Of a DNA stretch of 64,000 nt, positions 25,999 through 30,993 are shown piece by piece. The position numbers and the translations under genes are program-made. This DNA is from Acidimicrobiales bacterium. Lineage in GTDB: Bacteria > Actinomycetota > Acidimicrobiia > Acidimicrobiales > JAHWLA01. The notes under the pieces were generated by a model. The model worked only from the letters and a program-made list of their open reading frames with translations, did no database searches and had not been told where the DNA came from. The DNA is taken from contig DATLNE010000031.1 of assembly GCA_035536915.1 (NCBI GenBank), forward strand, positions 1 through 64,000. Direction: 5' to 3'. How positions within the stretch are numbered: position 1 is the first letter of the stretch; the number at the start of each line of letters is the position of its first letter.

Positions 25999-27351
25999 CT
26001 AGTGCTCGTCGCCGGGGCCGTGGCCGGCCCGCTGGTCGGCAAAGCGGCGCAGGGCGTCGGTATCCACGTCGGTGCACGTCATCTTGTGGCGCCAGGCCGT
26101 GGCCACGACGCGAGCGGGCAGCGTCGGGTTGGGCGCCACCACCACCTGCTCGCCCGCCAGCCCCACTACCGCAGCCCGGTCGGCCGGGTCGCGGTACTGC
26201 ACGAGCACCCGTCCCTCTTCGAGCACGCCCACCTGCACCGGGCGGGGGAGGGGCTCGTCGACCGCGCCCGTGGGCAGCCCGCCCGTGCGGTGTGGCCCCG
26301 AGGTGGGCGGGTCGGTCACGTACACGGTCTCCGGCCCGCCGGCGAACAGGTGATGGGTGCTGCCCGGGTCGAGCGGCTCCTCGACCACGCCCGCGCACGC
26401 CCGTCCACCAGCCGGAGCCATCCCGTCGTCGTCACGGCAGCCGACGAACAGCATGGCCACCACCAGCAAGACGCTGGCCGCAGGCACCCGCCGCAGGTTG
26501 CGCAGCCGGTCCTGCAACAGGGCGATGCCCAATGCCACCAACGCCGCGCCGACCAGCAGCGACAGCCGGAACGGCTCGTCGAGGAACACCACCCCCAGCG
26601 TGATGGCGACGACCGGGATCACATAGGTGACGGTAGACGCCCGCGTCGGCCCCACCTCGGTGATGGCCTCGTAGTTGAGGACGTAGGCCAACCCGCTGGC
26701 GAACACCCCGAGCAGCAGCAGGCTGAGCAACGACCGCCACTCCAGGTCGACGCCCCGGGTGGCGATGCCCACCACCGCCTGCGGCGCCGTCAGCACCGTG
26801 GCCGCCGCCAACTGCCCGCCCACTGCCACCAACGACGCCACCCCCACCACGTAGCGCTGCGTGTAGGCGTAGCCGAACCCGTAACAGGCCGCCGCACCCA
26901 GGGCCGCGCCCGCGCCGACCAACGACGACGACCCCAGGCTGTCGCCGCCAACCCCCGCCGCCACCGCCACGCCCACGAAGCCCAGCGCCAGCCCCGTCAC
27001 CTGCGGGAGCCGCAACCGTTCGTGCAGCCCGATCGCCGCGGCGATGGCGGCGAACATCGGCGTGCCCGCGTTCATCACCGATGCCAGCGCCGAGTCGATG
27101 TGCTGCTGCCCCCACGCCAGCAAGGTGAACGGCACTGCCCCGTAACAGAGCCCCATGACCACGAAGTGCCGCCACATGACGGCGTCGCGGGGCAGCGACA
27201 GCCCCCGCCGCCGCATCACGAAGGTGATGACGACGAACCCGATGGCGATGCGCCCGAAGGCCACGGTGCCCGGCGTCATGGCCCGCAGGCCCACCTTGAT
27301 GAACAGGAACGACCAGCCCCAGATGAAGGCCAGGAGGAGCACGCGCCGCAC
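25999..27351 (-). CDS. EamA/DMT-family transporter fused to a DUF3105 domain
   Basis: A protein of 450 aa. Residues about 1-290 hold roughly ten hydrophobic helices in two EamA repeats (AFIWGWSFLFIKVGLRAMTP at the start, SGLAYVLNYEAI and TYVIPVVAITLGVVFLDEPF in repeat two), typical of drug/metabolite exporters. Then comes a segment that reads like a lipoprotein signal (ASVLLVVAMLFVGC, about 293-306), followed by a DUF3105-like exported domain with TDPPTSGPH, VQYRD, VVAPNPTLPARVVATAWRH and TCTDVD. The fusion is unusual. A GTG just before the second signal could serve as a separate internal start, so two products are possible. Confidence 0.8.
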   Translation of the reverse strand: MRRVLLLAFIWGWSFLFIKVGLRAMTPGTVAFGRIAIGFVVITFVMRRRGLSLPRDAVMWRHFVVMGLCYGAVPFTLLAWGQQHIDSALASVMNAGTPMFAAIAAAIGLHERLRLPQVTGLALGFVGVAVAAGVGGDSLGSSSLVGAGAALGAAACYGFGYAYTQRYVVGVASLVAVGGQLAAATVLTAPQAVVGIATRGVDLEWRSLLSLLLLGVFASGLAYVLNYEAITEVGPTRASTVTYVIPVVAITLGVVFLDEPFRLSLLVGAALVALGIALLQDRLRNLRRVPAASVLLVVAMLFVGCRDDDGMAPAGGRACAGVVEEPLDPGSTHHLFAGGPETVYVTDPPTSGPHRTGGLPTGAVDEPLPRPVQVGVLEEGRVLVQYRDPADRAAVVGLAGEQVVVAPNPTLPARVVATAWRHKMTCTDVDTDALRRFADQRAGHGPGDEH

Positions 27352-27441
27352 CGCCCGACCCTACCGACGCCCCGGCCGCTACCCGGAAACGCATTCTCCA
27401 AGGAGCCCCCTGGAGACCCTCCGGCCTACACTGGCCGCGCC

Positions 27442-27735
27442 ATGTCCCGGTCTCTCATCGAGCGCCGCCTCCTCGAGGTGAACGAGCGCCTTCGCCGCGC
27501 CCGTGAGGAGTTGGCCGTGCTCGACGAGCAGTCGGCCGTCTTCAACGACGCCGCCGACGACGCCCGCATCCGGGCGTTGGTGTCGGAGACACCGCTGGCC
27601 GACAAGGAGCACCGCGAGGCCCAGAAGCACGCCGACGCCATGCTCCGGAGCCGGGCAGCCGCCCTCGCCACGATCACCGAGCTCGAGCGCCTCCAAGGAG
27701 AGCTGCTCGACCGCTTGGTGGTCGAACCCCGCTAA
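27442..27735 (+). CDS. Small coiled-coil protein, unknown function
   Basis: A protein of 97 aa, almost entirely charged helix: LIERRLLEVNERLRRAREEL at the N-terminus and ATITELERLQGELLDRLVVE at the C-terminus suggest an antiparallel coiled-coil dimer. No signal or membrane segment. It resembles conserved small actinobacterial proteins of unknown role. TACACT (27427-27432) is a possible -10. It lies 24 nt before the ANTAR response-regulator gene and may be its operon partner. Confidence 0.75.
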   Translation: MSRSLIERRLLEVNERLRRAREELAVLDEQSAVFNDAADDARIRALVSETPLADKEHREAQKHADAMLRSRAAALATITELERLQGELLDRLVVEPR

Positions 27736-27759: not shown

Positions 27760-28335
27760 GTGGCCGTCCGAGTCGTCGTCGCTGAAGACGAGGCCATTGT
27801 CCGCCTCGATCTCAAAGAAATCCTCGAAGAAGAGGGCTATGAAGTCGTCGGCGAGACCGGCCGCGGCGACGAGGCCGTGACTCTCGTCCGCGAGCACAAC
27901 CCCGACCTCGCCATCCTCGACATCAAGATGCCGGGCCTCGACGGCCTGGCCGCCGCCCGGGAGATCGCCGGCGAGCGCCGGGCCGCCGTGCTCATCCTCA
28001 CCGCCTTCAGCCAGCGCAACCTCATCGAGGAGGCCCGCGACGCGGGCGCCCTGGCCTACCTGGTGAAGCCCTTCCAGAAGAGCGAGCTGCTGCCCGCCAT
28101 CGAAGTGGCCTTGGGCCGCTTCGCCGAGCTGAAGGCGCTCGACAGCCAGACCAAGTCGCTGGAAGAGCAACTGGAGATCCGCAAGATCGTCGACCGGGCC
28201 AAGGGCATGCTCATGGACCGCCACGGCATGACCGAGTCCGACGCCTTCTCGTTCATCCAGAAGACGGCCATGCACGAGCGGGAGACGATGAAGACCATCG
28301 CCCAGCGCGTGCTCGACGGCGACCTGCAGCCGTAA
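27760..28335 (+). CDS. pdtaR: ANTAR-domain response regulator (PdtaR-like)
   Basis: A protein of 191 aa. The receiver domain (1-120) has the acidic pocket VVAEDEAIVR, the phospho-acceptor Asp54 in AILDIKMPG, and Lys in LVKPFQ. The C-terminal ANTAR RNA-binding domain (about 128-188) contains IRKIVDRAKGMLMDRHGMTE and ETMKTIAQRVL. This architecture matches mycobacterial PdtaR, which on phosphorylation acts as an antiterminator at paired RNA hairpins. The cognate PdtaS kinase is not beside it. The start is GTG 27760 with AAGGAG 8 nt upstream. Confidence 0.9.
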   Translation: MAVRVVVAEDEAIVRLDLKEILEEEGYEVVGETGRGDEAVTLVREHNPDLAILDIKMPGLDGLAAAREIAGERRAAVLILTAFSQRNLIEEARDAGALAYLVKPFQKSELLPAIEVALGRFAELKALDSQTKSLEEQLEIRKIVDRAKGMLMDRHGMTESDAFSFIQKTAMHERETMKTIAQRVLDGDLQP

Positions 28336-28376: not shown

Positions 28377-28844
28377 GTGTTAGGACAACCTAAGAAAGCA
28401 GCAGCATCCGTCCTCCTCCTGGCCACGTTGGCGCTCGGCGCGTGCGGCGGCGGCGAGGACCGTCCGGGCAGCGCGGGCTCGGCCAGCGGCAGCGGCTCGG
28501 GTTCGGGCAGCCACGCCCACGAGACCACGCTCAAGACGGTGCCCGCAGCCGAGGCCACCACCACCGTCGACGTCGTGATGCGCGACTTCAAGTTCGAGAT
28601 GCCCACCACCGTCAAGGCGGGCAAGGTCCTCTTCCGGGTGAAGAACGAGGGCCCCACCGAGCACGAGTTCGTCATCATGCAGGGCACCAAGGAGCTGGCC
28701 GAGGTCCACGGCGTCGACGCGGGCAAGAGCGGTGAGCTCGCCGTCGACATCCCCGCGGGCCGCTACACCGCCAAGTGCCTGATCGGCTCGGGCGGCGGCC
28801 GCCACGACAACCTCGGGATGGTCCAGAACTTCACCGTTGAGTAA
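28377..28844 (+). CDS. Cupredoxin-domain lipoprotein with type-1 copper ligands
   Basis: A protein of 155 aa. The signal peptide ends in a lipobox, LALGAC, so Cys22 would be lipidated, followed by a Gly/Ser linker. The cupredoxin domain (about 65-155) shows all four type-1 copper ligands: His in PTEHEF, Cys in AKCLIG, and His and Met in RHDNLGM. It is probably a periplasm-facing, membrane-anchored electron carrier or copper-binding protein. The GTG start at 28377 overlaps a TTAGG-N4-CCTAA palindrome like the one at the DtxR-family gene, hinting at metal-responsive control (inference). Confidence 0.85.
   Translation: MLGQPKKAAASVLLLATLALGACGGGEDRPGSAGSASGSGSGSGSHAHETTLKTVPAAEATTTVDVVMRDFKFEMPTTVKAGKVLFRVKNEGPTEHEFVIMQGTKELAEVHGVDAGKSGELAVDIPAGRYTAKCLIGSGGGRHDNLGMVQNFTVE
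28380..28393. promoter_or_regulatory. Putative IdeR/DtxR-type operator on the cupredoxin gene start
   Basis: TTAGGACAACCTAA: 5-bp perfect arms with a 4-nt centre, the same arm sequences and spacing as the site at 34013-34026. It starts 1 nt after the GTG start codon, so a bound repressor would block initiation. Regulator identity is inferred. Confidence 0.5.
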
Positions 28845-28845
28845 A

Positions 28846-28896
28846 CGAACTGTGCGGGGTTCCGGCGCGTCCTGCGCGGGAACTCCGCACACTTCG
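28846..28896 (+). terminator. Long imperfect hairpin after the cupredoxin gene
   Basis: Arms 28846-28869 and 28873-28896 pair at 20 of 24 positions around a TCC loop. It starts 2 nt after the stop. The right arm read on the minus strand begins CGAAGTGTGCGGAG, close to CGAAGTTGCGGAG of the 7333-7400 hairpin. Likely a terminator or member of a palindrome family. Confidence 0.6.
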
Positions 28897-28941
28897 ATCC
28901 TCCATCGCAACACCTCGGGCACCAGCCGCTCGGCCGGGCCG

Positions 28942-30993
28942 ATGGAGGAGGCTGCGGCACGGGCCTGGAACGTGCTCAACGAGGGCAAGCCCTTCACCCT
29001 CGTCTTCGTCGGCTTCCTCCTGCTCGTCACCGGCGCCCCTCTCGCAGGCATCGCCGCCTGCGCGCCCCTCGCCCTGGCCTGGTTCCGCCACGCCTACCCC
29101 CTGCACCTGCGGGCCATCCTGTGGGCGGTGGCCGCCGCCGTGGTCGTCGTCGCCGGCGGCCTCCCCCTCGGCGCCGCCGCCTTGGCCCTCGGCCTGTACC
29201 TCACCTTCACCATCGTGTTGTGGGGTACCGTCTACTACCACCTCCGGCTGGGCGCGCCCCTCACCAACTTCGTGCGCTTCTGGCGCCTGGTGCTGGAGAA
29301 CCCCGACCCCACCTCGGGCAACTTCCTCGAACAGGTGCCCAAGGTGGCCGCCCTCCTGGCCGTCGGCCACTCGACCCGCCCGACCGCCACCCTGCTGGCC
29401 GCGGGCATTGCCGCCTGGGCCGTGGGTGCTGTGGTGCACCGCCACCTCGTCACCTGGGTGCCCGGCCGGGCCACCGGCGACCACGCCGCCGACCGGCGCC
29501 CCCGCAACGCAGGCGTCGCCGAGTGCGGCCCGCCCAGCCGCAAGGTCCTGCTGCTGGTCATCGACGGCTGCCGCAACGACCGTTTCGACGAAGCCCATAC
29601 GCCGTTCCTCGACCGCTTGGCCGCCGAGGGCATCCGCTACCACACCTGCGAGACCGTCTACCCGGCTCGCACCGTCACCTGCTTCAGTTCGATCCTCACC
29701 GGCGCGCCCCCAGCAGTCCACGGCATGCACTCCAACTTCGTGCCCTCGCTGGGCGTGAAATGCGAGTCGATCTTCGACGTCGTGCCCAGCGCCCACATGG
29801 TCGGCATCGCCCACCTGGTCGACGCCTTCGGCGACGACGTGAGCACGGTCACCGCGGTCATGCCCAACGACGAGATCGACTGGGCCCTGTGCAACAAGGC
29901 CCGTGAAGTGGTGGAGGCCGACGACCCCGATTTGCTGGTGGTGCAGACCCTCAGCGTCGACCAGACCGGCCACTTCCGGGGCTCCTACTACGACGAGTAC
30001 CTGGCCCACATCGAGTCGACCGACACAGAACTGGAGCGCCTGGTCGACTGGCTGGCGGACCGGTGGGGCGGCCTCGATGGCGTGACCATCGGCGTGCTCT
30101 CCGACCACGGCCAAGGCATCGGCATCGGCGGCCACGGCCACTGGACCCCGACCGAGCGCTACGTGCCCTGCATCTGGTGGGGCGCCGGGGTGCCGCCGCG
30201 ACCGCTGCGCGACGAGGTGTCGCTGCTCGACGTCACCGCCACGTTGGCCCACCGCATGGGCGTGCGCACCCCCGAGCGTTCGGTGGGCACGTGCCTGCTC
30301 TGCAACGCCGATCCCACCCCGGCCACCGGGCCAAAGGTGGCGATCCTTCCCGTGCGCAACGAAGCAGCCACCGTGGCCTCGGTCATCGAGCGCGTCCCTG
30401 CCGACTGGGAGACCGTGGTGGTCGACGACGGCTCCACTGACGACAGCGCGGCGATCGCTGTCGCCGCGGGCGCCAAGGTCGTGGCCCACGACCGCAACCT
30501 GGGCCTCGGCGCCGCCGTGCGCACCGGCCTGGAAACGGCGCATGCCATGGGTGCCTCGGTGGCCGCCTTCCTCGACGCCGACGGCGAGTACGACCCCGCC
30601 GAACTGCCGACGCTGGCCCGGCCCATCATCGACGGCGAGGCGGACTACGTGGTCGGTTCCCGCTTCAACGGCACCATCCGCTCGATGCTCCCGCACCGCC
30701 GCCTGGGCAACCGGTTGCTCACCCTGCTCACCGCCGCGGTGGCCCGGCACCGCATCAGCGACGGCCAGTCGGGGATGCGAGCGCTCGGCGCCGATGCCCT
30801 CGCCGTCGCCCGCATCAACCACGACTACAACTACGCCCAGGTCCTCACCCTCGACCTGTTGCGCAAGGGCTTCCGCTACCGCGAAGTCCCGATCACCTAC
30901 GAACGGCGCCGTACCGGCCGCAGCTTTGTCACGCTGGGCCGGTACGTGCGCCGGGTGCTGCCTGCCATGGTGCGGGCCGCCCGCACCCGCTGA
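28942..30993 (+). CDS. Membrane-anchored alkaline phosphatase/phosphodiesterase fused to GT2 glycosyltransferase
   Basis: A protein of about 683 aa. The N-terminal 160 residues have several membrane helices (FTLVFVGFLLLVTGAPLAG, LWAVAAAVVVVAGGLPLGAA). Residues about 201-445 form an alkaline-phosphatase-superfamily domain with metal ligands in LLLVIDG, a nucleophile region YPARTVTCFSS, DQTGH, SDHGQG and HGHW. From about 465 a GT2 domain begins (KVAILPVRNEAATVASVIER; VVVDDGSTDD; AAFLDADGEYDP), like polyprenyl-phosphate sugar transferases, with a C-terminal YREVPITYERR. The fusion is unusual and suggests one enzyme that trims and transfers on a lipid or cell-wall glycan (inference). ATG 28942 is preferred over an upstream extension through the hairpin. 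Confidence 0.82.
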   Translation: MEEAAARAWNVLNEGKPFTLVFVGFLLLVTGAPLAGIAACAPLALAWFRHAYPLHLRAILWAVAAAVVVVAGGLPLGAAALALGLYLTFTIVLWGTVYYHLRLGAPLTNFVRFWRLVLENPDPTSGNFLEQVPKVAALLAVGHSTRPTATLLAAGIAAWAVGAVVHRHLVTWVPGRATGDHAADRRPRNAGVAECGPPSRKVLLLVIDGCRNDRFDEAHTPFLDRLAAEGIRYHTCETVYPARTVTCFSSILTGAPPAVHGMHSNFVPSLGVKCESIFDVVPSAHMVGIAHLVDAFGDDVSTVTAVMPNDEIDWALCNKAREVVEADDPDLLVVQTLSVDQTGHFRGSYYDEYLAHIESTDTELERLVDWLADRWGGLDGVTIGVLSDHGQGIGIGGHGHWTPTERYVPCIWWGAGVPPRPLRDEVSLLDVTATLAHRMGVRTPERSVGTCLLCNADPTPATGPKVAILPVRNEAATVASVIERVPADWETVVVDDGSTDDSAAIAVAAGAKVVAHDRNLGLGAAVRTGLETAHAMGASVAAFLDADGEYDPAELPTLARPIIDGEADYVVGSRFNGTIRSMLPHRRLGNRLLTLLTAAVARHRISDGQSGMRALGADALAVARINHDYNYAQVLTLDLLRKGFRYREVPITYERRRTGRSFVTLGRYVRRVLPAMVRAARTR

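Follow-up and report, generated by a model that had tools for sequence, protein, structure and literature searches.

An EamA transporter and a DUF3105 domain joined in frame across a conserved internal lipobox in Acidimicrobiales

The window analysed here, a stretch of 64,000 nucleotides from an Acidimicrobiales genome, carries on its minus strand a single open reading frame of 450 amino acids (25999..27351) that begins with GTG, contains no internal stop codon and has homologous single reading frames in relatives. From its sequence, it is one gene in which an EamA/DMT transporter is followed by a charged stretch, an eleventh helix with a lipobox at its end and, last, a DUF3105 domain. The EamA (drug/metabolite transporter) part occupies residues 4-279 (26515..27342, minus strand) and is matched by Pfam PF00892 in two stretches, the best being 4-130, with 137.2 bits against a curated cut-off of 28.2 (E 5.6e-40). 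At the other end, residues 343-445 (26017..26325, minus strand) form a presumably exported domain matched by DUF3105 (PF11303), which scores 54.4 bits where the curated cut-off is 25 (E 1.7e-14). The two are separated by the segment RLRNLRRVPAASVLLVVAMLFVGC, in which the cysteine is residue 305, and the inter-domain sequence reads RLRNLRRVPAASVLLVVAMLFVG followed directly by C305. Within it, residues 284-305 (26437..26502, minus strand) look like a lipoprotein signal, with a charged n-region, helix 11 and the lipobox LFVG ending before C305, where the putative Lgt/LspA site would lie. The sequence-only reading of this DNA had described an EamA transporter running without a stop into an exported DUF3105 domain across a lipobox-like LFVGC, and the reading frame and the Pfam matches to both halves bear this out. 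Matches to PHROGs are confined to the transporter part. Upstream, a -10-like element, TAGGGT, lies 7-12 bases 5' of the GTG start (27358..27363, minus strand).

In an AlphaFold2 model of the fusion built from 11 sequences (mean pLDDT 77.8, pTM 0.59), the ten helices of the transporter are followed by an extra helix at residues 291-304, which stops directly before Cys305. Residues 301-316 are poorly defined and of low confidence, and beyond them lies a compact, better defined C-terminal domain. The transporter part adopts the DMT fold, its best Foldseek match being LicB (7paf; E 2.4e-07 over 290 columns). Over 17 sequences, the invariant positions of DUF3105 are PTSGxH, a Gln, LExG, TAW and a C-terminal Cys. 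The conserved cysteines are 319, just before the Pfam match, and 426, the C-terminal one being the only cysteine present in all aligned rows of this set. A model of the domain from the 17 sequences reaches a pLDDT of 91.4 and has no Foldseek match to known structures at E under 0.001; by sequence there is no clear solved relative either, the three matches standing at E 1.2 or worse. VIA-align finds it weakly thioredoxin-like (best Z 6.8, rmsd 3.0, 92 aligned), and the 50 matches listed are thioredoxins by title, or proteins with the thioredoxin fold such as ERp27 and ERdj5. In the model, this weak likeness may be only a common arrangement. Two more DUF3105 copies occur in the same genome (G000:C33:39623-40006 and G000:C47:71221-71562), scoring 87.4 and 84.0 bits against 58.0 for the fused one.

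Divergent from the fusion, on the plus strand, lies a gene for a 97-aa protein (27442..27735) that has no match in Pfam or NCBIfam; a small protein of this type often sits at the same position in relatives, between the fusion locus and a response regulator. The response regulator itself (27760..28335, plus strand), recognised by receiver-domain matches in NCBIfam and presumably PdtaR-like, marks the syntenic place. The product of the next gene past it (28377-28844) is small and predicted to be a lipoprotein (LALGACGGG); Pfam recognises a cupredoxin-like domain in it (3.5e-07), and such a gene is also present in the G001 and G008 loci. Close by lies a 718-aa reading frame (28837-30993) with an unusual in-frame combination of a type I phosphodiesterase/nucleotide pyrophosphatase-like part (Pfam 4.8e-25) and a family 2 glycosyltransferase (1.4e-22).

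Among 298 genomes of the order, 21 match the fusion at E 1e-60 or better. Nine of these hold the full in-frame fusion (G000, G001, G008, G010, G066, G103, G135, G230, G286), and two are cut by a contig end: in G018 the lipobox is still visible, while G046 is cut before it and is left out of the fusion counts. One genome (G209) has separate adjacent genes, seven (G030, G145, G251, G142, G100, G171, G014) have the EamA gene at the same place without a tail, and the remaining two (G292, G062) hold more distant EamA genes. Searches within families added two full fusions (G517, G528), bringing the number of distinct full fusions to 11, spread over five families of the order (f1, f3, f8, f10, f14); the YX2bin34 record, whose protein is identical to that of G528, is counted once. 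The contig-cut G018 comes from a further family (f18) and is a twelfth case, with a DUF3105 piece at the edge of another contig of that genome. In G209, the stop codon of the EamA gene overlaps the ATG of the lipoprotein gene as ATGA, the two are in different frames, and the lipoprotein has a lipobox of its own. Four more genomes (G003, G004, G013, G027) carry the DUF3105 lipoprotein alone at the same place, beside the same response regulator. These homologues of the tail have a lipoprotein signal at their start, their motif fits resting on start residues chosen for typing. The response regulator adjoins every locus except the distant EamA genes of G292 and G062 and the fusion of G517, where the available stretch ends before the position in question. 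Thus one chromosomal place is found in four states: a fusion, two separate genes that overlap, the transporter by itself, and the lipoprotein by itself.

The fusion was also sought in samples wider than the order. The only matches in a class sample of 296 genomes are G000, G010, the cut G018 and the distant G292. Among 396 genomes of the phylum, with four candidates scored per genome, none but the window's own genome gives a whole-model match at E 1e-45 or better, a negative limited by the search model, which may end before the true tail (the fused G286 is reported as 3-280). In the phylum sample, some matches run past residue 290 only by way of stop codons, the longest (G609) covering 4-359 with two TAG. 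The available flanking stretches of 11 loci beyond the order contain no match to DUF3105, the flank of one of them (L086) being 286 bases after the gene.

This comparison of gene boundaries in relatives, which the sequence-only reading had proposed, recovers fused, separate and single-half states. The same reading had seen a transporter gene and a lipoprotein gene joined by read-through. The joining of two such genes in frame across a lipobox is in keeping with the separate genes of G209 and the four lone lipoproteins; its accidental nature is contradicted by a single reading frame in 11 distinct full-length cases from five families. A strain-specific read-through or an assembly error is ruled out by the same 11 fusions. 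We also considered that adjacent genes of a very GC-rich genome might simply lie open in frame without any importance. Stop codons are indeed rare at high GC, the fused, separate and single-gene states are mixed on the tree, and the fusions share descent and hence are not independent trials. Against this, only one separate adjacent pair faces the 11 distinct full fusions, and the frame has been kept in all 12 fusions through changes in linker length: the lipobox cysteine lies 62 to 97 residues past the last transporter motif, and the next cysteine another 10 to 29 residues on. Moreover, dN/dS between G135 and G517 is 0.10 for EamA and 0.39 for DUF3105, and, from few sites, 0.33 for the n-region with helix 11 and 0.84 for the 11 residues after the cysteine. 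Chance openness is thus a very improbable account of the locus.

What is conserved between the two domains can be seen when the 12 fusions (the 11 full-length ones and the contig-cut G018) are aligned on the lipobox cysteine. This cysteine is kept in all 12, as is a small residue (Gly, Ala or Ser) at position -1, and position -3 is Leu in nine. The 20 residues preceding the h-region hold three to six Lys or Arg and at most one Asp or Glu in every case. The n-region, h-region and lipobox cysteine expected of Lgt/LspA substrates are therefore present in all 12. The consensus of the lipobox is given as Leu-Ala/Ser-Gly/Ala-Cys in the available passages of PMC9360617. By comparison, mean pairwise identity is only 22% in the h-region (positions -16 to -4) and 25% in the eight residues that follow the cysteine. 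From these alignments, it is the lipobox and not the linker that is the conserved element between transporter and DUF3105. The sequence-only reading had held that a long protein with a conserved linker in all relatives would speak against a read-through fusion: the long protein is found in many of them, and what is conserved is the lipobox instead of the linker. The un-anchored form of the G+LPPv2 lipoprotein-signal motif fits 11 of the 12 fusions, and the twelfth (G230) only when an h-region of more than 20 residues is allowed. It also matches once elsewhere in G008 and G103 (residue 178), and so by itself the motif is unspecific. Export of helix 11 by the twin-arginine route was considered and rejected, as the arginine pair before the helix is absent in G008, G010, G066 and G018.

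The following model can be proposed. EamA proteins have their C-terminus on the cytoplasmic side, and helix 11 would accordingly run from inside to outside, like a signal peptide. Lgt would then add a diacylglyceryl group to Cys305, and LspA would cut before the lipidated cysteine. The cut would release a lipid-anchored DUF3105 lipoprotein, and a short tail would stay on the transporter; one gene would thus give both partners 1:1 and at the same membrane spot. In the window's genome, LspA and Lgt are each matched once above the curated cut-offs. We judge it somewhat probable that the fusion is such a conserved transporter-lipoprotein polyprotein, with helix 11 acting as an internal lipoprotein signal that is lipidated and cut by Lgt and LspA. 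Counted against the polyprotein are the seven genomes in which the transporter stands at the same place without a tail, and Cys305 could have another role. The transporter and DUF3105 probably work as a pair, one moving a small molecule and the other acting as its extracytoplasmic partner, which fits the overlapping genes of G209.

Alternatively, the fusion may stay whole. Helix 11 would then be an extra span that tethers DUF3105 outside the cytoplasm, where the domain would act as a sensor or handle the substrate, and the lipobox would be a relic or would be lipidated and left uncut. The whole reading frame is open and recurrent, as such a tether would have it, and an uncut tether is workable, since a second fusion family described below retains its architecture after loss of the cysteine in two of its eight fused loci. 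A relic, however, is unlikely to have kept both its cysteine and a small residue at -1 in every one of the 12 fusions when identity in the preceding helix has dropped to 22%, and the genome encodes both LspA and Lgt. We therefore regard an uncut tether as rather unlikely.

A free lipoprotein might also be made beside the long protein by internal initiation. The sequence-only reading had offered the GTG at residue 289 (26485..26487, minus strand) as the start of such a product. This proposal finds no footing: the codon has no Shine-Dalgarno match, the resulting signal would be without any Lys or Arg, and the other 11 fusions all lack a start codon at this distance, 16 residues, from the cysteine. 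Starts further upstream make a better case. Over the 12 fusions there are 44 in-frame ATG, GTG or TTG codons within 42 codons of the cysteine, and in 11 of the fusions at least one of them is far enough upstream to take in the charged stretch. The lipobox could thus also be under selection for the sake of an internally initiated lipoprotein. Residue 279, in the last helix of the transporter, is a start codon in seven of the 12 and would include the charges. Yet a Shine-Dalgarno match of four bases or more precedes only six of the 44 internal starts (five GGTG, and one GGAGG in G018), and the seven at codon 279 all lack one. This codon encodes a Val or Leu of the helix, for which GTG and TTG arise easily in a GC-rich gene; it is not a start in G001, G528 and G286, and G286 has no charge-including start in the range at all. 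The natural starts fare no better in this respect, with four-base Shine-Dalgarno matches in four of the 12 fusions. Positions -12 to -7 hold TANNNT in five (G000, G001, G066, G103, G010) and CAGRAT in three (G230, G528, G286). These upstream elements suggest that the fusion mRNAs are leaderless, a mode of initiation tied to mRNA ends, which speaks against starts inside the gene. Internal initiation, at GTG289 or upstream, for example at codon 279, is on this evidence improbable.

To see how often a lipoprotein motif falls inside a membrane protein, 2,279,136 bases (70.7%) of the window's genome were scanned. Of 1,636 reading frames that passed the filter, 153 have four or more hydropathy helices, with 1,011 internal helices in all, and the un-anchored motif has 12 internal matches among them. 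For only two of the 12 is the matched helix the final one, with a tail of at least 60 residues behind it: the reading frame of the window and G000:C5:8713-9894. With a laxer cut of two or more helices (272 reading frames), there are 15 matches, three of them of this kind. The third is G000:C4:11833-12696, on the minus strand, which has two hydropathy helices and may be a wrong-frame reading frame.

The second case (L098:8713-9894, plus strand) is an unrelated protein of 393 amino acids, with about four helices, the segment RPLALVGAVVAVAVLLAAC and then an exported domain of about 200 residues that has no match in Pfam or NCBIfam. It is matched in 20 of 296 genomes, 11 of which hold both parts and the other nine one part only. 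The parts are fused in frame at eight loci (G000, G001, G187, G272, G014, G165, G213, G106), the membrane region of the G001 locus being recognisable in its later part only, and are separate at three (G018, G211, G152). The cysteine is missing from two of the eight fused loci (G187, G014) and from two of the three separate ones (G018, G152), from which it appears that a plain anchor does without it. Its loss here, against its retention in 12 of 12 EamA-DUF3105 fusions, speaks more strongly than any other observation for a lipobox that is in use in the latter. We give even chances to the broader proposition that signal peptidase II cutting of an internal signal after a multi-spanning transporter arose at least twice in one actinobacterial order, in EamA-DUF3105 and in this four-helix protein with its uncharacterised exported domain.

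In a tree of the transporter part, G209 is sister to the fused G286 (100/100), within a group that holds other fusions, and the transporter-only genes are intermixed with fusions. By a hand count on this tree, which is partly unresolved, about seven changes (six losses of the tail and one split) are required if the ancestor was fused, and about 11 (five fusions and six losses) if it had separate adjacent genes. An old origin of the fusion within the order is therefore probable, with repeated fusion as a possible alternative history.

Judged from its sequence, the locus is a real, recurrent in-frame fusion with a conserved internal lipobox, the parts of which are known and the combination of which is new, and processing by Lgt and LspA is the best-supported reading of it. 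The signals on which Lgt and LspA are known to act are N-terminal, and it is at N-termini that lipoprotein signals are normally sought, so internal ones are easily missed. No internal lipoprotein signal or internal Lgt/LspA substrate was found reported in the open-licence literature, as far as its accessible portions go, review passages included. The same literature yielded no case of permease polyproteins, frame-joined genes or an EamA-lipoprotein fusion, and no mention of DUF3105, which the fusion now links to a transporter. If LspA does cut the internal signal, a single gene can supply equal amounts of a transporter and of the lipid-anchored protein that partners it, and LspA, an antibiotic target, accepts more kinds of substrate than has been assumed. 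In addition, since fused, overlapping and single genes all occur at this one place, the locus is a natural series in which the reasons for gene fusion can be tested.

Several known systems can be set beside it. Lipoprotein signal peptides have the same charged n-region, h-region and lipobox cysteine as the fusion. In known Lgt/LspA substrates, however, the signal is N-terminal, whereas here it begins at about residue 284, after the transporter helices; the fusion would thus work like these substrates without being a standard member of them. EamA/DMT transporters such as LicB (7paf, 7b0k) share the fold of the transporter part, but the matched chains, at 255-278 residues, are too short for an exported tail. 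Conversely, the stand-alone DUF3105 lipoproteins of the same order have a homologous tail at the same chromosomal place, but with their own N-terminal signal and with the transporter absent. In mycobacteria, the MFS transporter Rv1410 likewise has a lipoprotein partner outside the membrane, LprG; in the parts of the account available, these are two separate proteins, and both belong to other families (PMC10576003), so the likeness to an EamA-DUF3105 pair is one of analogy. Among transporter fusions that are cut, the closest precedent to come to light is Chlamydia YtgC-YtgR, in which, according to the available portion of the source, a membrane permease likewise carries a second functional domain, which cleavage sets free (PMC5599777). 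There the tail is a DNA-binding repressor and the protease is unidentified (PMC5599777); here the tail is predicted to be exported, and the candidate protease is LspA.
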